From the NCBI GenBank assembly GCA_001005265.1, contig CP011392.1, forward strand, positions 1,485,902 through 1,549,901: a stretch of 64,000 nucleotides of DNA, read 5' to 3'. Each line of letters opens with the position of its first letter. Position 1 is the stretch's first letter. The position numbers and the translations under genes are program-made. Of the stretch, positions 24,844 to 49,922 are shown in pieces. A model generated the notes under the pieces. It made no database searches, was not told the origin of the DNA, and saw only the letters and a program-made list of their open reading frames with translations. This DNA is from Dehalogenimonas sp. WBC-2. GTDB taxonomy: Bacteria > Chloroflexota > Dehalococcoidia > Dehalococcoidales > Dehalococcoidaceae.

Positions 24844-24991
24844 TGTGTACCATGGCCTCTTCCATTCGGTTGAAGATGAAGAATCTAAATCATCCAGATC
24901 ATGAAAGTTCAGAGCCAATAATGAAGCGGAAGCCAAACCGATACCCCTCATAAATTCCCGTCTGTTTATTGTTGAATGATATTTAGAACAT
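24844..24991 (-). pseudogene. Truncated rdhA relic: ribosome-binding site and twin-arginine leader only
   Basis: Reading leftwards from an ATG at 24991 with AGAGGA upstream, one extra T follows the start codon. The frame then encodes SKYHSTINRREFMRGIGLAS, continues with FHDLDDLDSSSS, and ends KRPWYT before TGA. This matches the first 48 residues of RdhA proteins in this window. The remaining 400-plus residues are gone, and a new ribosome-binding site and the cysteine-rich gene follow immediately. The relic lies directly downstream of nrdJ. It marks a recombination or deletion scar inside the rdh region. Confidence 0.85.
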
Positions 24992-40420: not shown

Positions 40421-41929
40421 ATGTCACAGTTCCACAGCACAGTCAGTCGCAGAGATTTTATGAAGGCGCTTGGACTATCCGCCGCAGGCCTGGGTGCCGC
40501 GGCTGCCACCGCCCCAGTTTTCCATGACCTGGATGAGCTCATGTCATCCGAAAAAGCAAATTGGAAGCGCCCATGGTGGGTCAAACAACTCGAACCGCAT
40601 CATCCAACTGTTGAATTAGACTTTAGCCAAATGCAGCGTTTCGATCAACGCCTGAGTTGTCAGTCAAATTACACCAATGCCAAATATGCTGGCGCAGACG
40701 AATGGGGCAAGGTAGCCACCGCAACCGCGGCCTTTAACAAAGAGAACCTTGGCAAAGTAGGTTCAACGGTTAGAGATAAAGCGCTATCAGCCGCCGCCTC
40801 TCAGTTTTATTCAGCCAAGATTTTTACCACCGCTACACTAACTGGTTCTCCGGCTGGCATTCAAACCCCTGAGCAGATGGGCTTGCCGAAATGGACCGGT
40901 ACTCCTGAAGAAGGCAGCCGGATGCTCCGCGCCGTTTCTGTATTCCTGGGTGCTGGCGCTATGGGTTCTGCCGAACTGGAAAAGAAATTGGTTTTCAGTT
41001 ACATCAAAGCCGGAAGCAAAAATGGCCCAACCGCCAACGATGCTACTTATATCAACAATTGGCCGCCACCCCTTGAAGCTGGCCCCAAAATAGACTTTGA
41101 AAATGTGTCAGTCGGCTATGAAACTGAACAACGTAAAGTCTTACCAGACGCCGTTCAACTGCACGAAGTAGGCATCATGATCCCTATGGCCAAGGATGCA
41201 TGGCGCACCGCTATGACAGATGCTCCTTCAGGTGTCGCCGGAGCGGCTAATATCAGCCGTTACCGCATGTGGACTTGTTCCGTGCAACCAGGTATTCAGG
41301 CGTTCCTTCGCGGAATAGGTTACACCGGTTACGGTTATCCCTGGCCGGATATGTCCGGCGGTTTAGTGCCAGCGCAAGCTAGCGCAGTTCTTGGTGGTAT
41401 CTCCGAAATGGGCCGCCACAGTGACGCCGCTATCAGCCCCGAATTTGGCGCCAACATGGGCTACTACAGCTTCCTTACTGACTTCCCCATGGCCGATGAT
41501 GCGCCGATTGATGCCGGTATTTTCCGCTTCTGCCACTCTTGCAGGGTGTGCGCCGATGCCTGCCCGTCCGAGTCTATTTCCCAAGAGTCTGAACCAACCT
41601 GGGAAGTGGTGCAAGGTTACAAGGTACCAAATATGAACCAGCAGACAGGCAAAAAACTCTTCTGGACAGATATGCATAGCTGCATGAAATATCGCAGCAT
41701 CTACGGTTGTAATGTGTGTCGCCCGGTCTGCACCTTCAATACCAACAATGCACCCATCCACACCCTCATCAAGACTACAATCTCCAACACCAGCCTGCTT
41801 AATGGATTCTTTGCAGTCATGCATGACCCATTTGGATACGGGTTGAAAGACCCGGAAGCCTGGTGGGATATGTCTCTGCCTATCTGGGGCACCGACTCCA
41901 CCACAGCAGCCTACGACGGCGGTTATTAG
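40421..41929 (+). CDS. rdhA: Reductive dehalogenase catalytic subunit (rdhA-4), orphan
   Basis: A 502-residue RdhA with the leader SRRDFMKALGLSAAGLGAAAATAP and the post-leader segment VFHDLDELMSS. It shares the QRLSCQSNYTNAKYAG block with rdhA-5 to rdhA-8, so these five form one subfamily. Fe-S motifs are CHSCRVCADACP (about 370-381) and C-x8-CNVC-x3-C (about 424-440). The frame is open to 40352, but AAGGAG eight bases before 40421 and the leader fix the start. No rdhB follows; a strong terminator does. The substrate is unknown. Confidence 0.96.
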   Translation: MSQFHSTVSRRDFMKALGLSAAGLGAAAATAPVFHDLDELMSSEKANWKRPWWVKQLEPHHPTVELDFSQMQRFDQRLSCQSNYTNAKYAGADEWGKVATATAAFNKENLGKVGSTVRDKALSAAASQFYSAKIFTTATLTGSPAGIQTPEQMGLPKWTGTPEEGSRMLRAVSVFLGAGAMGSAELEKKLVFSYIKAGSKNGPTANDATYINNWPPPLEAGPKIDFENVSVGYETEQRKVLPDAVQLHEVGIMIPMAKDAWRTAMTDAPSGVAGAANISRYRMWTCSVQPGIQAFLRGIGYTGYGYPWPDMSGGLVPAQASAVLGGISEMGRHSDAAISPEFGANMGYYSFLTDFPMADDAPIDAGIFRFCHSCRVCADACPSESISQESEPTWEVVQGYKVPNMNQQTGKKLFWTDMHSCMKYRSIYGCNVCRPVCTFNTNNAPIHTLIKTTISNTSLLNGFFAVMHDPFGYGLKDPEAWWDMSLPIWGTDSTTAAYDGGY

Positions 41930-41960
41930 ATCTTCAATACAGGGTAAGTATCCACAAAGT

Positions 41961-41997
41961 AAAAAGGAGGAGGCTTTAAAGGCCTCCTCCTTTTTTT
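41961..41997 (+). terminator. Rho-independent terminator after rdhA-4
   Basis: AAAAAGGAGGAGGC pairs with GCCTCCTCCTTTTT around seven bases and a T-run follows. The 45 bases before it are nearly identical to those after rdhA-6. Confidence 0.9.
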
Positions 41998-42104
41998 AGC
42001 CAACCTTTATAATCATAGATAAAAGCATTTCATAATACATACATTAATTTAGTTGACTATTCTTTTAATCTCCTATGGCCCAAAATACGTATTAAGTACA
42101 ATAG

Positions 42105-42122
42105 GTACTAATACTATAGTAC
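42105..42122 (+). promoter_or_regulatory. Conserved inverted repeat upstream of rdhA-5
   Basis: GTACTA (42105-42110) and TAGTAC (42117-42122) flank ATACTA. A closely related sequence lies upstream of rdhA-7 (45610-45628), and a half-site lies upstream of rdhA-8. It is 202 bases before the rdhA-5 start, in the 325-base AT-rich gap after the rdhA-4 terminator, which otherwise shows no gene. Confidence 0.55.
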
Positions 42123-42323
42123 GATGTATATTTATATCACTTGGTGTAATATTATACTTATAGTTATGTTAGATATTCTTACGATTATTTCCTCAAAGTC
42201 TGGGTAAAATAAGTCCATGTCAATACGTATAAAAAAAAAGGAGGACAATTCACGCAACAAGGCTTTAGGAGCATCATAGCGAACTGATAATATCAGGCTA
42301 AAAAATAAGAGGAGAACATACTA

Positions 42324-43865
42324 ATGTCCACGTTCCACAGCACAGTTAGTCGCAGGAATTTTATGAAGGCACTTGGATTATCCGCCACCGGTTTAGGCGC
42401 AGCCGCTGCCGCAGCTCCAGTTTTCCATGACCTGGATGAGCTAATCGCATCCGATAACGCCGGATGGCAACGCCCATGGTGGGTTAAAAGCGTTGATGAA
42501 CCCTCTGTAGAGATCGATTGGAGTCAAATTAGTCGTATCGACCAGAGATTAACTTGTCAATCACAATACGTCAATGCTCAATATGCAGGCGTTGATGAAT
42601 GGAAACGTCTAAGTGCTGAAGGGTCAGCAGCCAAAAAGGCATTCGTGGGTACAACAGGTAATAAACTTCGGGATTACGCACTCAGTGCTGGCTCAAGTTC
42701 TTTCGAATCGCCAACCAGAGTATGGACACACGGGACACTGACTGGACCGAATGTGAGTACTTATGAAAACATTGGGCTCCCAAAGTGGCAAGGTACACCT
42801 GAAGAAAATACACGAATGGTTAGAGCAGCGGCCAAATATTATGGTGCAGCACAAATTGGTACCTGTGAATTGGCGACCGATGAACGAAAATTGGTCTTTA
42901 CCCATCCTAAAGGTGAAGGAGGGTGGTCTGGTGGCGCGGTTGGAGTGCAAGGGAGCGGCGCAAATGCTGCTTACTTCATTGACCACTGGCCTCCACCAAA
43001 CACCGCCGGCCGAGCGATCGAATGGGTTAATCAGGATGTTGGTTATGAAGATGAAGAGCATATCTATCTTCCAGACCGACCACTCTGGGACTTCGGTGTC
43101 CAAATTCCAATGCCGCACGAAACGTGGAGTACGGACAATCCGGATGGTGGCTCTCAACTGCGGGGTTCCGGGAATGTCGCTCGTTACCGAATTTGGACGA
43201 TGTCTGTTATGCCCGGACTATTAATATTCCTAAAGACTCTTGGTTATCATGGGTATGGGTATCCGTATCCCGATAAAGCAGGCGGTTTGGTTCCAGCTCT
43301 AGCCAGCGCAGTCTTGGGTGGCATCTCAGAGATGGGCCGATCAAGCGAATTTGGTCTCAATCCGGAATATGGGTCTCTCGGCGGCTATTACAGCATGCTG
43401 ACAGATTTACCCATGCAACCCGATAAACCGATTGATGCCGGCATGTTCAGATTCTGCGGCACTTGTGGTGTGTGCGCAAGGGCATGTCCTTCAGAGTCAA
43501 TTTCGTTTGACAAGGAACCTTCGTGGGAAATCCCAGATTTTGGTTACAAGGTTCCTCAAATGAATATGATGCCGGGTAAAAAACTTTTCTGGACAGACAC
43601 ACATTCCTGCCAGAAATACAATTTAGCCCACAACTGTCGCATATGCAGACCCGTTTGTACATTCAATGTCAGTAACGGAGCCATGGTACACGATATCATT
43701 AAAGGTACAATGTCTGTTACGTCATTATTCAACGGGTTCTTTGCAAAAATGCACGATGTGTTTGGTTATGGTTTGAAGGACCCCGATGCCTGGTGGGAAG
43801 GCGATTTCCCGATGTGGGGCACAAACAGCTTATTGGTTGGCACTGACGGTGGATATAAAAAATAA
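42324..43865 (+). CDS. rdhA: Reductive dehalogenase catalytic subunit (rdhA-5), orphan
   Basis: A 513-residue RdhA. The leader reads SRRNFMKALGLSATGLGAAAAAAP, with Asn in place of the usual Asp. Fe-S motifs are CGTCGVCARACP (about 378-389) and C-x8-CRIC-x3-C (about 430-446). A distinctive insertion near residue 200 is rich in glycine (EGGWSGGAVGVQGSG). The gene follows GAGGAG and is 26 bases upstream of rdhA-6, so the two are probably on one mRNA. No rdhB is present. Confidence 0.96.
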   Translation: MSTFHSTVSRRNFMKALGLSATGLGAAAAAAPVFHDLDELIASDNAGWQRPWWVKSVDEPSVEIDWSQISRIDQRLTCQSQYVNAQYAGVDEWKRLSAEGSAAKKAFVGTTGNKLRDYALSAGSSSFESPTRVWTHGTLTGPNVSTYENIGLPKWQGTPEENTRMVRAAAKYYGAAQIGTCELATDERKLVFTHPKGEGGWSGGAVGVQGSGANAAYFIDHWPPPNTAGRAIEWVNQDVGYEDEEHIYLPDRPLWDFGVQIPMPHETWSTDNPDGGSQLRGSGNVARYRIWTMSVMPGLLIFLKTLGYHGYGYPYPDKAGGLVPALASAVLGGISEMGRSSEFGLNPEYGSLGGYYSMLTDLPMQPDKPIDAGMFRFCGTCGVCARACPSESISFDKEPSWEIPDFGYKVPQMNMMPGKKLFWTDTHSCQKYNLAHNCRICRPVCTFNVSNGAMVHDIIKGTMSVTSLFNGFFAKMHDVFGYGLKDPDAWWEGDFPMWGTNSLLVGTDGGYKK

Positions 43866-43891
43866 TAATAAAATGTGGAGAAAGTATCAAT

Positions 43892-45415
43892 ATGTCAAAT
43901 TTTCATAGTACAGTTAGTCGCAGGGATTTCATGAAGATCTTAGGTCTATCCGGTGCTGGCATCGGCGGAGCAGCTTTGGTTGCCCCCGCTTTCCACGACA
44001 TCGATGAGCTTTCTTCTTCATCGAGTGCAGTAAGGAAGCGTCCTTGGTACATCAAGGAAGTAGACAAGCCAACCGTTGAGATTGACTGGAGTCAAATAAA
44101 GAGATTTGATCAGCGCCTCCAGTGTCAAGCTAATAGTACGAATGCTAAATATGCGGGACCCGATGAGTGGGCAAAAGTGGCGACTGAGGCTACGGCTTTC
44201 AGCAAGGAACAGCTCGGAAAAAGTGGGTCTACCTTGAGAGATATCGCTCTTAATGGATCCGCTTTCAGAACTATCATCGGAACTCCATATTCTCCCACTG
44301 CTAAAGCTGGACTTTCTGGGAAAGATACATTGAAAACTTTCATTCCGCCAGCTTTTGTTCAAACTCCAGAACAGATAGGACTGCCAAAGTGGACAGGCAC
44401 CCCTGAAGAGGCTGCGAGCATGGTCCGTGCGGCAGCGGTATTTTATGGTGCAGGGCAGGTTGGTTTTGGAAAATTAGATCATGAGCTAATTTTCACTTAC
44501 AGCAAGGGCGAGGCAAATTCAGCGAAATATGTTACCACTTGGCCACCGCCATTGAATGTTGCTCACAGAATTGATATTGAGAATGTCGATCCAGGATGGG
44601 ATGATGGAGAAGTAGTACATGTTCCGAGTAAGCCTCTTTGGGAAATTAGTGTCATGATTCCAATGGCAAGAGATGCTTGGCGAACTGCTCACGGCGACTA
44701 TTCTTCGGGTGTAGCGAGCGCAGCTAACAGTAGCCGCTATCGCATTATGGAAATTATCCAACCCGCTATTCAAGGTTTTATCAAGAGCTTGGGATACATG
44801 TGTTATGGATACTTTGAAGGTTCCGGTGGTATAGTTCCCGCTCAAGCAAGCGCAGTATTGACAGGCCAAGCTGAAATGGCTCGACATAGTGATGCTATAA
44901 TTGATCCTGAATTTGGGGCAAATATGGGTTATTACAGTCTGTTAACAGACCTTCCGTTAGCTGAAGAGCCAGCGGTTGATGCTGGTATTTGGCGATTCTG
45001 TCACACTTGTCACAAATGTGCTGATCAATGTCCCTCTGGATCAATCTCACAGGATTCAGAACCTTCTTGGGAAGTCACACAAGGAATCGGAACCCCCTAT
45101 AAAATTCCCAATATCAACCAAGCGCCAGGAAAGAAACTGTTTTGGACAGACATGCACAGCTGCGTTAAATGGCGCAACATTCATGGATGTAATGTGTGCA
45201 GAGTGAACTGTACGTTTAATGTAAATTCTGGCGCAATGGTTCATGAAATTGTTAAATCTACAATCTCTACAACTTCCCTATTCAATGGGTTCTTGTGGAA
45301 GATGGGTGAAAACTTTGGTTATGGTGCTGAAAAAGATGTCGATCAATGGTGGACAAAGCAACTTCCTCAATTTGGTTTCGACACCACAACTGAAGCTTAC
45401 GACGGCGGTTACTAG
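43892..45415 (+). CDS. rdhA: Reductive dehalogenase catalytic subunit (rdhA-6), second gene of an rdhA-rdhA operon
   Basis: A 507-residue RdhA with leader SRRDFMKILGLSGAGIGGAA. It is closely related to rdhA-7/8 over the whole length (for example GTPEEAASMVRAAAVFYGAGQVGFGKLD), but its codon use is more AT-rich. Fe-S motifs are CHTCHKCADQCP (about 370-381) and C-x8-CNVC-x3-C. Its last bases and 3' flank match those of rdhA-4. The ribosome-binding site is weak (TGGAGAAAG). No rdhB is present. Confidence 0.96.
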   Translation: MSNFHSTVSRRDFMKILGLSGAGIGGAALVAPAFHDIDELSSSSSAVRKRPWYIKEVDKPTVEIDWSQIKRFDQRLQCQANSTNAKYAGPDEWAKVATEATAFSKEQLGKSGSTLRDIALNGSAFRTIIGTPYSPTAKAGLSGKDTLKTFIPPAFVQTPEQIGLPKWTGTPEEAASMVRAAAVFYGAGQVGFGKLDHELIFTYSKGEANSAKYVTTWPPPLNVAHRIDIENVDPGWDDGEVVHVPSKPLWEISVMIPMARDAWRTAHGDYSSGVASAANSSRYRIMEIIQPAIQGFIKSLGYMCYGYFEGSGGIVPAQASAVLTGQAEMARHSDAIIDPEFGANMGYYSLLTDLPLAEEPAVDAGIWRFCHTCHKCADQCPSGSISQDSEPSWEVTQGIGTPYKIPNINQAPGKKLFWTDMHSCVKWRNIHGCNVCRVNCTFNVNSGAMVHEIVKSTISTTSLFNGFLWKMGENFGYGAEKDVDQWWTKQLPQFGFDTTTEAYDGGY

Positions 45416-45449
45416 ATCTTCAATACAGGGTAAGTACCCACAAAGTAAA

Positions 45450-45479
45450 AAGTAGGAGGCCTTTAAAGGCCTCCTACTT
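45450..45479 (+). terminator. Terminator hairpin after rdhA-6
   Basis: AAGTAGGAGGCC pairs with GGCCTCCTACTT around TTTAAA. The hairpin is a variant of the one after rdhA-4, but the T-run is reduced. Confidence 0.85.
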
Positions 45480-45609
45480 CTATAACTACATCAAACATGT
45501 ATTTACTCATAACCAGACAAGGATAATTTTTCGCAAGATATTCTTAATCTGGATGCTTAGCATATCTTTGAAAAAATGTTTGAGTGCAATATTACGTACA
45601 AGATGATAA

Positions 45610-45628
45610 GGTCTAATACTTTAGTACT
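45610..45628 (+). promoter_or_regulatory. Conserved motif upstream of rdhA-7
   Basis: GGTCTAATACTTTAGTACT aligns with the rdhA-5 upstream repeat with one gap and few mismatches. It is 146 bases before the rdhA-7 start. The gap from 45480 to 45773 shows no gene. Confidence 0.5.
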
Positions 45629-45714
45629 AGTTATTTTATTACCACCATTAGGCTTATAGCTATCTTTCTTATACTATTTCTGTATATACACTTCTCTCTC
45701 GGCATTGTACTATA

Positions 45715-47146
45715 CAAAGGTATCAAGCTACACAGCCCTATAGTGGCTTGGTAATAATAAAAGAGGAGGATCAATGTCCACGTTCCACAGCACAGTCAGT
45801 CGCAGGGATTTTATGAAAGCGTTGGGGCTTTCCGCCGCAGGCCTGGGTGCCGCGGCTGCCACCGCCCCTGTTTTCCATGACCTTGATGAGTTATCAACAT
45901 CATCAACGGCATCACGAAAGCGTCCGTGGTATGTTAAAGAACGCGAAGCTCATCATCCAACAGTAGAACTTGATTGGGACCAGATTCATCGTTTTGATCA
46001 ACGTTTACAATGCCAGGCCAACAGCACTAATGCAAAATACGCAGGAGCCGAAGAATGGGCAAAGATTGCGGTTGAAGCGACAGAGTTTAAGAAAACAACT
46101 CTTGGCGGCAAGGGAAACACCCATAGGGATATGGCTTTATCGGGCTCTGCTTCTCGAGGCATCATCGGCACTCCCTACTCCGGAAGGGCTGGAGTTTCCG
46201 GAAAGGATACTTTGAAAACCTTCCTTCCTCCGGATTTTGTTAAGACTCCAGAACAAATGGGATTCCCTCAATGGACAGGAACACCGGAAGAAGCGGCTCA
46301 CATGCTTCGGGCGGCGGCCATATTCTATGGCGCCGGACAAGTAGGCTTTGCTAAATTGGATCAGAAGTTGGTCTTCACATATAGTAAAGGCGAAGCAAAC
46401 TCAACTAAATACATCGGTTCTTGGCCCCCACCGCTAAGTGCGGCACGCAGGATTGACATTGAAGATGTGGATCAGGGCTGGGACGACGGTGAAGTGGTTC
46501 ACCTGCCAAATAAGCCCCTGTGGGAAATCAGTGTTATGATCCCTATGGCTAGAGATGCCTGGAGAACCGCTCAATCAGATCGTTCTTCCGGACCTGCCGC
46601 TGCGGCTAACTCAAGCCGCTATCGCATCATGGAAATCGTCCAGCCTTGTATTCAGGGCTTTATTAAGAGCCTCGGGTATACTTGCTACGGGTACTTTGAG
46701 GGTTCCGGTGGTATCGTTCCCGCTCAGGCCAGTGCAGTACTGACCGGTATTGCAGAAATGGGCCGCCACAGTGAAGCGGTGATTGACCCGGAATATGGGG
46801 CTAATATGGGTTATTACAGCCTCTTAACAGATCTTCCCTTAGCTGAGGAGAATCCGATTGATGCCGGTATCTTCCGTTTCTGCCATTCCTGCCATAAGTG
46901 TGCCAATCAATGTCCTTCGGAATCTATCTCTCATGACTCTGAACCATCTTGGGAAGTTACTCAAGGAATTGGGACACCTTACAAGATCCCAAATATAAAT
47001 CAGGTGCCTGGGAAAAAGCTGTTCTGGACAGATATGCACTCTTGCATGAAATATCGAACAATCCACGGATGCAATGTCTGCCGTCCAAACTGTACTTTTA
47101 ATGTTAACTCAGGAGCTATGGCCCACCAGGTGATCAAATCAACGAT
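45715..47146 (+). repeat. Identical duplication tract, copy 1
   Basis: The sequence from about 58 bases before the rdhA-7 start to 47146 is repeated at 47624-49055 with no difference that I could find by eye, offset by 1909 bases. After this boundary the two copies differ at several synonymous positions within 100 bases. Confidence 0.85.
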
Positions 47147-47303
47147 CTCCACAACTCCTTTACTCAATGATTTCTTCTACAAAATGGGTGAGGTTTTTAA
47201 GTATGGCGCCGATAAAGATCCCGAGCTTTGGTGGGATCATCAATTACCAACATTTGGCTTTGAAACAACATCTACCACTTATGATGGTGGGTACAAAAGG
47301 TAG
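45774..47303 (+). CDS. rdhA: Reductive dehalogenase catalytic subunit (rdhA-7), duplicate of rdhA-8
   Basis: A 509-residue RdhA with leader SRRDFMKALGLSAAGLGAAAATAP and Fe-S motifs CHSCHKCANQCP (about 370-381) and C-x8-CNVC-x3-C. The encoded protein is identical to rdhA-8. The first 44 leader residues match rdhA-4 apart from position 3 (Thr for Gln) and residues near the end, suggesting exchange among 5' ends. The start follows AGAGGAGG. No rdhB is present. A terminator follows at 47334. Confidence 0.97.
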   Translation: MSTFHSTVSRRDFMKALGLSAAGLGAAAATAPVFHDLDELSTSSTASRKRPWYVKEREAHHPTVELDWDQIHRFDQRLQCQANSTNAKYAGAEEWAKIAVEATEFKKTTLGGKGNTHRDMALSGSASRGIIGTPYSGRAGVSGKDTLKTFLPPDFVKTPEQMGFPQWTGTPEEAAHMLRAAAIFYGAGQVGFAKLDQKLVFTYSKGEANSTKYIGSWPPPLSAARRIDIEDVDQGWDDGEVVHLPNKPLWEISVMIPMARDAWRTAQSDRSSGPAAAANSSRYRIMEIVQPCIQGFIKSLGYTCYGYFEGSGGIVPAQASAVLTGIAEMGRHSEAVIDPEYGANMGYYSLLTDLPLAEENPIDAGIFRFCHSCHKCANQCPSESISHDSEPSWEVTQGIGTPYKIPNINQVPGKKLFWTDMHSCMKYRTIHGCNVCRPNCTFNVNSGAMAHQVIKSTISTTPLLNDFFYKMGEVFKYGADKDPELWWDHQLPTFGFETTSTTYDGGYKR

Positions 47304-47333
47304 ACTACAGCCTCCTTACCAAGCTTGGTTTAG

Positions 47334-47366
47334 AAAGCCGAGGGGTTTCACCCTTCGGCTTTCTTT
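47334..47366 (+). terminator. Terminator after rdhA-7
   Basis: AAAGCCGAGGG pairs with CCCTTCGGCTTT (one G-T pair) and is followed by CTTTT. It is unrelated in sequence to the terminator after rdhA-8. Confidence 0.85.
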
Positions 47367-47517
47367 TATTGGTTGCTATGATCATTTCAGTCAACTTTTT
47401 TAATCTACACTAAATCTATATTTACTTCATAATCAGCTAAGGGTAATTTTTCAATACTCTCTAATTAAAGGAACAATAGATATTATTACTTGTAGTCTGG
47501 TATACTTTTAATATTTA

Positions 47518-47567
47518 CTATTAATGATTAGTCTTTTGGCTATCATTAATAGCTTATTTAGTACTAT
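47518..47567 (+). promoter_or_regulatory. Inverted repeat and shared motif upstream of rdhA-8
   Basis: CTATTAATGAT (47518-47528) pairs perfectly with ATCATTAATAG (47542-47552). TTAGTACTA, shared with the upstream motif of rdhA-7, follows at 47558-47567. It lies 115-165 bases before the rdhA-8 start, in a gap of about 315 bases with no gene. Confidence 0.5.
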
Positions 47568-47623
47568 ATCTATACCTATTCTGTATATACATTCCTTCTC
47601 CAATATTATATTATTTGTATTAT

Positions 47624-49055
47624 CAAAGGTATCAAGCTACACAGCCCTATAGTGGCTTGGTAATAATAAAAGAGGAGGATCAATGTCCACGTTCCACAGC
47701 ACAGTCAGTCGCAGGGATTTTATGAAAGCGTTGGGGCTTTCCGCCGCAGGCCTGGGTGCCGCGGCTGCCACCGCCCCTGTTTTCCATGACCTTGATGAGT
47801 TATCAACATCATCAACGGCATCACGAAAGCGTCCGTGGTATGTTAAAGAACGCGAAGCTCATCATCCAACAGTAGAACTTGATTGGGACCAGATTCATCG
47901 TTTTGATCAACGTTTACAATGCCAGGCCAACAGCACTAATGCAAAATACGCAGGAGCCGAAGAATGGGCAAAGATTGCGGTTGAAGCGACAGAGTTTAAG
48001 AAAACAACTCTTGGCGGCAAGGGAAACACCCATAGGGATATGGCTTTATCGGGCTCTGCTTCTCGAGGCATCATCGGCACTCCCTACTCCGGAAGGGCTG
48101 GAGTTTCCGGAAAGGATACTTTGAAAACCTTCCTTCCTCCGGATTTTGTTAAGACTCCAGAACAAATGGGATTCCCTCAATGGACAGGAACACCGGAAGA
48201 AGCGGCTCACATGCTTCGGGCGGCGGCCATATTCTATGGCGCCGGACAAGTAGGCTTTGCTAAATTGGATCAGAAGTTGGTCTTCACATATAGTAAAGGC
48301 GAAGCAAACTCAACTAAATACATCGGTTCTTGGCCCCCACCGCTAAGTGCGGCACGCAGGATTGACATTGAAGATGTGGATCAGGGCTGGGACGACGGTG
48401 AAGTGGTTCACCTGCCAAATAAGCCCCTGTGGGAAATCAGTGTTATGATCCCTATGGCTAGAGATGCCTGGAGAACCGCTCAATCAGATCGTTCTTCCGG
48501 ACCTGCCGCTGCGGCTAACTCAAGCCGCTATCGCATCATGGAAATCGTCCAGCCTTGTATTCAGGGCTTTATTAAGAGCCTCGGGTATACTTGCTACGGG
48601 TACTTTGAGGGTTCCGGTGGTATCGTTCCCGCTCAGGCCAGTGCAGTACTGACCGGTATTGCAGAAATGGGCCGCCACAGTGAAGCGGTGATTGACCCGG
48701 AATATGGGGCTAATATGGGTTATTACAGCCTCTTAACAGATCTTCCCTTAGCTGAGGAGAATCCGATTGATGCCGGTATCTTCCGTTTCTGCCATTCCTG
48801 CCATAAGTGTGCCAATCAATGTCCTTCGGAATCTATCTCTCATGACTCTGAACCATCTTGGGAAGTTACTCAAGGAATTGGGACACCTTACAAGATCCCA
48901 AATATAAATCAGGTGCCTGGGAAAAAGCTGTTCTGGACAGATATGCACTCTTGCATGAAATATCGAACAATCCACGGATGCAATGTCTGCCGTCCAAACT
49001 GTACTTTTAATGTTAACTCAGGAGCTATGGCCCACCAGGTGATCAAATCAACGAT
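47624..49055 (+). repeat. Identical duplication tract, copy 2
   Basis: Counterpart of 45715-47146. It includes the ribosome-binding site, the leader and about 1.37 kb of coding sequence of rdhA-8. Flanks on both sides are diverged but still related on the upstream side. Confidence 0.85.
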
Positions 49056-49212
49056 TTCCACTACTCCGTTGCTCAATGATTTCTTCTACAAAATGGGTGA
49101 GGTGTTTAAGTACGGTGCCGATAAAGATCCCGAACTTTGGTGGGATCATCAATTACCAACATTTGGCTTTGAAACAACATCTACCACTTATGATGGTGGG
49201 TACAAAAGGTAG
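47683..49212 (+). CDS. rdhA: Reductive dehalogenase catalytic subunit (rdhA-8), duplicate of rdhA-7
   Basis: A 509-residue RdhA identical in protein sequence to rdhA-7, with the same leader, Fe-S motifs and AGAGGAGG site. DNA differences are limited to the last 160 bases and are all silent (for example at 49056, 49062 and 49068). The downstream hairpin is different. Identical products from two transcripts may simply raise dosage, or the pair may be kept alike by gene conversion. No rdhB is present. Confidence 0.97.
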   Translation: MSTFHSTVSRRDFMKALGLSAAGLGAAAATAPVFHDLDELSTSSTASRKRPWYVKEREAHHPTVELDWDQIHRFDQRLQCQANSTNAKYAGAEEWAKIAVEATEFKKTTLGGKGNTHRDMALSGSASRGIIGTPYSGRAGVSGKDTLKTFLPPDFVKTPEQMGFPQWTGTPEEAAHMLRAAAIFYGAGQVGFAKLDQKLVFTYSKGEANSTKYIGSWPPPLSAARRIDIEDVDQGWDDGEVVHLPNKPLWEISVMIPMARDAWRTAQSDRSSGPAAAANSSRYRIMEIVQPCIQGFIKSLGYTCYGYFEGSGGIVPAQASAVLTGIAEMGRHSEAVIDPEYGANMGYYSLLTDLPLAEENPIDAGIFRFCHSCHKCANQCPSESISHDSEPSWEVTQGIGTPYKIPNINQVPGKKLFWTDMHSCMKYRTIHGCNVCRPNCTFNVNSGAMAHQVIKSTISTTPLLNDFFYKMGEVFKYGADKDPELWWDHQLPTFGFETTSTTYDGGYKR

Positions 49213-49241: not shown

Positions 49242-49275
49242 AAAGTCGGGGAGTGAAACTCCCCGACTTTCTTTT
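49242..49275 (+). terminator. Rho-independent terminator after rdhA-8
   Basis: AAAGTCGGGGAGT pairs perfectly with ACTCCCCGACTTT around GAA, followed by CTTTT. Confidence 0.92.
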
Positions 49276-49550
49276 ATTGCGCTCTTTCAATCCGGGGCAA
49301 ACCAACAAGCAGAAATGACGCGTGAAATCTGAATAAATTACTAGACAGACTTTTCCCTTCATATAAGACCGACATCGCTACCCCAAAAAAGGCCCCCGTT
49401 GATTGCACCTGGACTTCTTCTTTCTAAAATTAGGTGCTTTCCCTGTGAAAATTAGGTGTTTTCCACAATTACATGAACAGAATAAAACCAGCTATCATCA
49501 CCTCAGATATATCTGGTTTTATTATTCCTACGGCAAAAAGGAGAAGGATT

Positions 49551-49922
49551 ATGGGCAATAAACCAATCTCAGTCATGCTATCAACCATTCTGCTGCTGAC
49601 AATTATGGGGATAATAGGTCTTACAGGCTGTACGACAGACCCAACACCCACTACAACGGCAACAGTTACGACCACCACTCCCCCTGTACTTACCACCACT
49701 CCAATGACAGCACAGTTATACGCTGATAACTGCGCTGGGTGTCACGGTATAAACCGCGAAGGAGGATTAGGGCCCCCACTGACACCAACTTCACCAGCTA
49801 TCGCCAGATTCGCCACCGCAGGTGCACTGTATGATAATATCGTAAATCACTACCCCGCAAGGATTCTGGGCGTGAGTGTACAGAGAGAACTGGCAGCCTA
49901 CCTCTGGCAAGAAACTCATTAA
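49551..49922 (+). CDS. Monohaem c-type cytochrome lipoprotein
   Basis: A 123-residue exported protein. The leader ends LLTIMGIIGLTGC, a lipobox. A linker of about 25 residues is rich in Thr and Pro (TPTTTATVTTTTPP). The domain has one haem site CAGCH near residue 64, followed by GLGPPLTPTSPAIARFATAG and a C-terminal helix with AAYLW. A distal Met ligand is not obvious. The start at 49551 has AAGGAGAAGG upstream; the frame extends 5' without a leader. It sits just after the rdhA array and could carry electrons at the cell surface, but this is unproven. Confidence 0.85.
   Translation: MGNKPISVMLSTILLLTIMGIIGLTGCTTDPTPTTTATVTTTTPPVLTTTPMTAQLYADNCAGCHGINREGGLGPPLTPTSPAIARFATAGALYDNIVNHYPARILGVSVQRELAAYLWQETH

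Follow-up and report, generated by a model that had tools for sequence, protein, structure and literature searches.

Reductive dehalogenases let bacteria such as Dehalogenimonas sp. WBC-2 respire chlorinated pollutants. The stretch of its genome analysed here, a window of 64 kb, carries a run of five rdhA genes (40421-49212) that closes with two tandem genes, rdhA-7 and rdhA-8. These encode the same protein and agree base for base over most of their length, and they carry a cluster of silent differences close to one end. How did two neighbouring genes come to be identical in one part and diverged in another?

Both genes are predicted from their sequences to encode reductive dehalogenase catalytic subunits. 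The full-length proteins score 274 bits with the RdhA model TIGR02486 (cut-off 160), 165 bits with PF13486 and 20.2 bits with a twin-arginine model (cut-off 16.7), and the iron-sulphur models PF13484 and PF13187 fall marginally below their curated cut-offs. The likeness to solved PceA structures is only distant. The residue in the alignment column of PceA Arg305 is not arginine, and the adjoining column holds arginine in 35 and glycine in 63 of the 112 rdhA genes of the genus. Decay was considered as the reason for the missing arginine and rejected, since the genus-wide residue counts mark it as a trait of the clade. A rdhB partner is usual beside rdhA but does not define it; no rdhB-like open reading frame is present between rdhA-7 and rdhA-8 or directly 3' of rdhA-8, and the cluster consists of rdhA only.

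Base-level comparison of rdhA-7 and rdhA-8

The features on which the comparison rests are the following.

43892..45415, + strand: rdhA-6, the nearest paralogue (78% protein identity); serves as control, its silent differences from rdhA-7 being evenly spread
45774..47303, + strand: rdhA-7, predicted RdhA catalytic subunit of 509 amino acids with twin-arginine signal; TIGR02486
47683..49212, + strand: rdhA-8, encoding the same protein as rdhA-7
45715..47146, + strand: tract A, copy 1 (putatively converted), 1432 bp equal to 47624-49055, beginning 59 bases 5' of the start codon
47624..49055, + strand: tract A, copy 2 (putatively converted), from the base comparison
47147..47225, + strand: diverged patch, copy 1, with 8 silent differences and a dS of about 0.8
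49056..49134, + strand: diverged patch, copy 2, from the base comparison
47226..47307, + strand: tract B, copy 1 (identical), 82 bp, reaching 4 bases past the stop codon
49135..49216, + strand: tract B, copy 2 (identical), from the base comparison

The two genes were compared base by base at an offset of 1909. The original prediction, which had read identical 509-residue proteins and about 1.43 kb of identical DNA from the sequence, was borne out on both counts: all 509 of 509 residues are the same, and 45715-47146 equals 47624-49055 over 1432 bp without a mismatch. It had also placed the first of several exclusively silent differences at 47147, and mismatches are indeed found there and at 47153, 47159, 47162, 47195, 47204, 47207 and 47225 only, all eight of them silent. 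The differences had been thought to extend over the last 160 coding bases behind a sharp boundary; the edge at 47147 stands, but the changes are confined to 79 bases and are followed by 82 identical ones, so that the diverged patch is bracketed by identity. Past the end of tract B (47307) the similarity falls immediately.

Under even scatter over the 1593 bases, so tight a cluster of eight differences (79 bases) has a probability of about 6e-9. The longest stretch free of silent changes comprises 434 degenerate codons and exceeded that in each of 5000 permutations (P < 1/5000). Differing codons make up 8 of 26 in the patch versus none of 27 in the next stretch (P = 0.002), and of the silent sites 0 of 310 are changed in the coding part of tract A, 8 of 16 in the patch (dS 0.82) and 0 of 15.7 in the coding part of tract B. 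The base-by-base alignment of the two units thus has its differences clustered, not evenly spread along the genes. The control pair rdhA-6/rdhA-7 had no unusual difference-free run (4468/5000 permutations).

No third copy of rdhA-7/8 was found in the host genome, searched as one contig of 1,725,728 bases, and the 64-kb window holds no other repeats of comparable identity. A protein search of genome, viral and plasmid contigs gave no orthologs of the pair; the best match in the other genomes searched has 58% protein identity, and at the DNA level nothing in the family beyond the host genome matches better than a 64% identical stretch.

Spacers, terminators and gene neighbourhood

Four further features flank the two genes.

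45416..45714, no strand: spacer 5' of rdhA-7, homologous to and diverged from the spacer 47304-47623
47304..47623, no strand: spacer between rdhA-7 and rdhA-8, resembling only the diverged spacer 5' of rdhA-7 and the terminator behind rdhA-8; occurs once in the genome
47334..47362, + strand: terminator hairpin of rdhA-7, homologous to 49242-49270
49242..49270, + strand: terminator hairpin of rdhA-8; compared with 47334-47362, three stem pairs are changed on both sides and one is changed on one side

The downstream terminators had been taken to be unrelated, and this was wrong. The sequences 3' of the two genes reach a local alignment score of 41, against a maximum of 27 in 300 shuffles, and the terminator hairpins, 29 bases long and starting at 47334 and 49242, retain their shape through three double compensatory changes in the stem. 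The spacers 5' of rdhA-7 and rdhA-8 align with a score of 49, which is of moderate significance given a maximum of 40 in 300 shuffles; the best alignment between them has 81% identity over 57 bases, with gaps, and identity is far lower elsewhere. Since homologous but diverged sequence flanks the genes at either end, the duplication must be older than the identity, and the three compensatory changes in the terminator stem likewise indicate that the 1.9-kb units are old.

Both spacers contain the perfect palindrome TGTATATACA (45681-45690 and 47582-47591), 34 bases 5' of the putatively converted tract. It is absent elsewhere in the window and, with one mismatch allowed, has 3 matches versus 1.55 expected; it lies 5' of both genes and is a possible operator. 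A leader hairpin with 11 stem pairs lies between the 5' edge of the tract and the ribosome binding site of each gene (45721-45753 and 47630-47662), and its stability compared with shuffled sequences is modest (z = -1.9). The spacer was not accepted as an Rfam element, as its two weak matches (L20 leader, BTnc231) are antisense and far under the gathering scores.

The open frame at 49473-49922, just 3' of rdhA-8, encodes a small lipoprotein that carries the haem motif CAGCH and matches cytochrome c. Relatives of it are present in 8 of the 8 Dehalogenimonas genomes searched, and a protein for cytochrome c assembly is encoded in the host genome. For the sister genus Dehalococcoides, by contrast, the abstract of one report states that cytochromes are absent (PMC10772276). 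Elsewhere in the window (24844-24987), 54 residues of a 71-codon open frame match rdhA; this fragment is probably a decayed gene. The characterised dehalogenase of strain WBC-2, tdrA, corresponds to DGWBC_0411-0415, and a partial nif set (DGWBC_0606-0610) is said to be unique to the strain (PMC13390414). Four nitrogenase-like genes were located near 0.56 Mb in the host genome, and as the locus numbers of tdrA are below those of the nif genes, tdrA would lie elsewhere in the genome than rdhA-7/8.

Explanations for the tract-wise identity

We consider an old tandem duplication, with a recent gene conversion whose limits lie near the gene ends, to be the best explanation of rdhA-7/8 and give it a probability of about 0.72. 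Gene conversion between duplicated genes is established in bacteria. An early tandem duplication would have doubled an ancestral 1.9-kb unit of spacer, rdhA gene and terminator, and the resulting units would then have diverged. Homologous recombination of the RecA type between the copies would later have acted non-reciprocally, that is, as gene conversion, and one gene would have been overwritten by the other from 59 bases 5' of the start codon to 47146. The spacers and terminators presumably escaped conversion and stayed diverged. In the simplest view the 79-base patch would be a surviving remnant of the old divergence, and the 82 identical bases 3' of it would call for either another short tract or an event that was discontinuous. 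The recombination mechanism, its dependence on RecA and the number of events are what we infer for this locus; RecA and MutS are both encoded in the host genome.

That the identity is confined to a tract within older, diverged homologous duplicates, with an abrupt shift in silent divergence (0 of 5000 permutations), argues that most of an older duplicate was overwritten by conversion. The original prediction had proposed just this, and it gains support from the homologous yet strongly diverged sequence that flanks the gene on both sides. All eight differences being silent, two long-functional lineages are favoured over errors as their source. When rdhA-6 was compared with the two versions of the patch, four of five informative sites sided with copy 7, five sites being too few to build on.

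A known counterpart is provided by the tuf genes of Salmonella, in which conversion can begin at any point of the gene and spreads in either direction, by about 500 nt on average, within the gene bounds; more than 96% of the tracts were contiguous (PMC5485169). Like rdhA-7/8, the tuf genes are near-identical duplicates of a protein gene that have gene-bounded tracts of hundreds of bases and retain differences in one part of the gene, and tract A resembles tuf tracts in its length and in ending near the gene bounds (PMC5485169). The tuf copies are, however, dispersed and their tracts nearly all contiguous, whereas rdhA-7 and rdhA-8 are adjacent and identical on both sides of the patch; moreover, tuf conversion was observed as events, whereas we infer that of rdhA-7/8 from sequence (PMC5485169).

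Identity on both sides of the patch fits a single contiguous tract poorly. An alternative is that one contiguous, gene-bounded conversion (45715-47307) was followed by the pasting of 79 to about 160 bases into one copy from a third homologue, either lost or residing in another cell. Such a later import accounts for the identity that flanks the patch (82-base stretch, P = 0.002) and agrees with the contiguity of tuf tracts (PMC5485169), but we regard it as unlikely: no third sequence in the genome resembles either version of the patch, a search of 84,980 genomes with its first 36 bases, any base being allowed at the variable sites, gave no exact match, and an outside source is unneeded because the patch is about as diverged as the flanks would predict. 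For this last reason a remnant left between two tracts is preferred to a later import. A quite different possibility is that the interiors of the two copies were merged during assembly into one consensus that was used twice. The 1.43-kb identity would then be partly or mostly artificial, with differences surviving only near the unique 3' flank, and the patch does lie within reach of that flank. The 1432 bp also form one repeated stretch at every word size tried, from 51 to 149. For Dehalococcoides WBC-2, which shares the culture, sequencing used 100 bp mate pairs together with 150 bp paired reads (insert size 150 bp), and the assemblers were ABySS and ALLPATHS-LG; the method is credited to the Dehalogenimonas genome paper (PMC5180379).

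Several observations nevertheless make such a merger improbable. Differences as dense as those in the patch would show within a read length 5' of 47147, where 43 codons have none (P about 1e-7), and there are likewise none just inside the 5' edge of tract A. Copies that differ by 10% would escape merging. The spacer 47304-47623, which is unique, diverged and attached to a gene end at both of its ends, would be left unaccounted for if the second copy were false. Tracts of the same kind, moreover, are seen in closed genomes of the genus. Because short reads cannot assign interior differences to one copy, a few isolated and widely spaced differences deep in the 1.43 kb could be hidden by the assembly; an even divergence could not be. 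By the same geometry of the reads, two copies are the minimum number, as a longer array would give the same assembly graph. There is very little, finally, to recommend the view that a single gene was recently duplicated in tandem and has flanks unrelated by descent. Such an event would give identity across 1.4 kb, but both flanks are homologous and diverged, and eight silent changes in 79 bases cannot follow a duplication that left 1.5 kb unchanged; the original prediction was right to disfavour a fresh duplication.

Possible exchange between rdhA paralogues in the genus

Old duplication with later conversion, our preferred reading of rdhA-7/8, has possible parallels within the window. The last codons and the terminator of rdhA-4 and rdhA-6 (41893-41992 and 45379-45479) are 90% identical over 101 bases, and the silent sites of these genes differ widely elsewhere; judged from this pattern, their 3' end is likely the product of a second exchange between paralogues. 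Between rdhA-4 and rdhA-7, silent identity amounts to 28/37 in the first 40 codons, which cover the signal region (40421-40540 and 45774-45893), versus 109/256 later in the gene (P = 0.0001).

For the genus, 91 rdhA-bearing stretches from seven other genomes, a subset of all rdhA genes, were compared within each genome. In three of these genomes there are rdhA pairs in which long stretches free of differences adjoin homologous sequence that has diverged. Two rdhA-carrying regions of genome G006 (L111 1-7031 and L114 1-7031), 44 kb apart, are identical over 5.87 kb up to a sharp edge inside a homologous gene, beyond which they differ by about 18%; a transposase is present at the opposite end. 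The pair L149/L150 of G004 has 499 bp without a difference, spanning 154 degenerate codons, a run found in 0/5000 permutations that leave silent constraint unmodelled; the genes otherwise differ, densely so in one segment. The pair L073/L075 of G001, which carries 89 silent differences, has 315 bp without any (125 degenerate codons; 0/5000 permutations, silent constraint again being unmodelled). Together, these patterns suggest, though they do not prove, a recurrent exchange between rdhA paralogues.

Near-identical rdhA paralogues and the duplication of rdhA genes are established (PMC2764846, PMC4751268). Dehalococcoides, too, has paralogues that are near-identical within one genome, at a Jukes-Cantor distance of <0.01, and the available part of that report presents them as duplications, without tract-wise identity between old copies (PMC2764846). 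The rdhA genes of Dehalobacter are also clustered, in repeated blocks of 70-92% similarity ascribed to duplication; the available part of that report gives no perfectly identical tract with sharp edges (PMC4751268). We found no report of gene conversion in rdhA in the literature searched, a body that omits most subscription papers.

It is conceivable, and we propose it only tentatively, that the rdhA families of Dehalogenimonas evolve in concert: frequent intragenomic conversion, tract by tract, may homogenise useful copies and shuffle segments such as the signal region, the 3' end and the terminator, and trees and ortholog groups may then partly reflect recombination. The rdhA genes serve as markers of the detoxification capacity of a site, and their ortholog groups are set by whole-gene similarity. 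If paralogues do overwrite one another tract-wise, conclusions from whole-gene trees or primer-based counts can go astray, and new rdhA combinations would also arise by conversion, besides the mobile islands that are usually credited. The tandem pair rdhA-7/8, which retains diverged spacers and a single scar of the earlier divergence, may represent a natural assay for tract-wise conversion.
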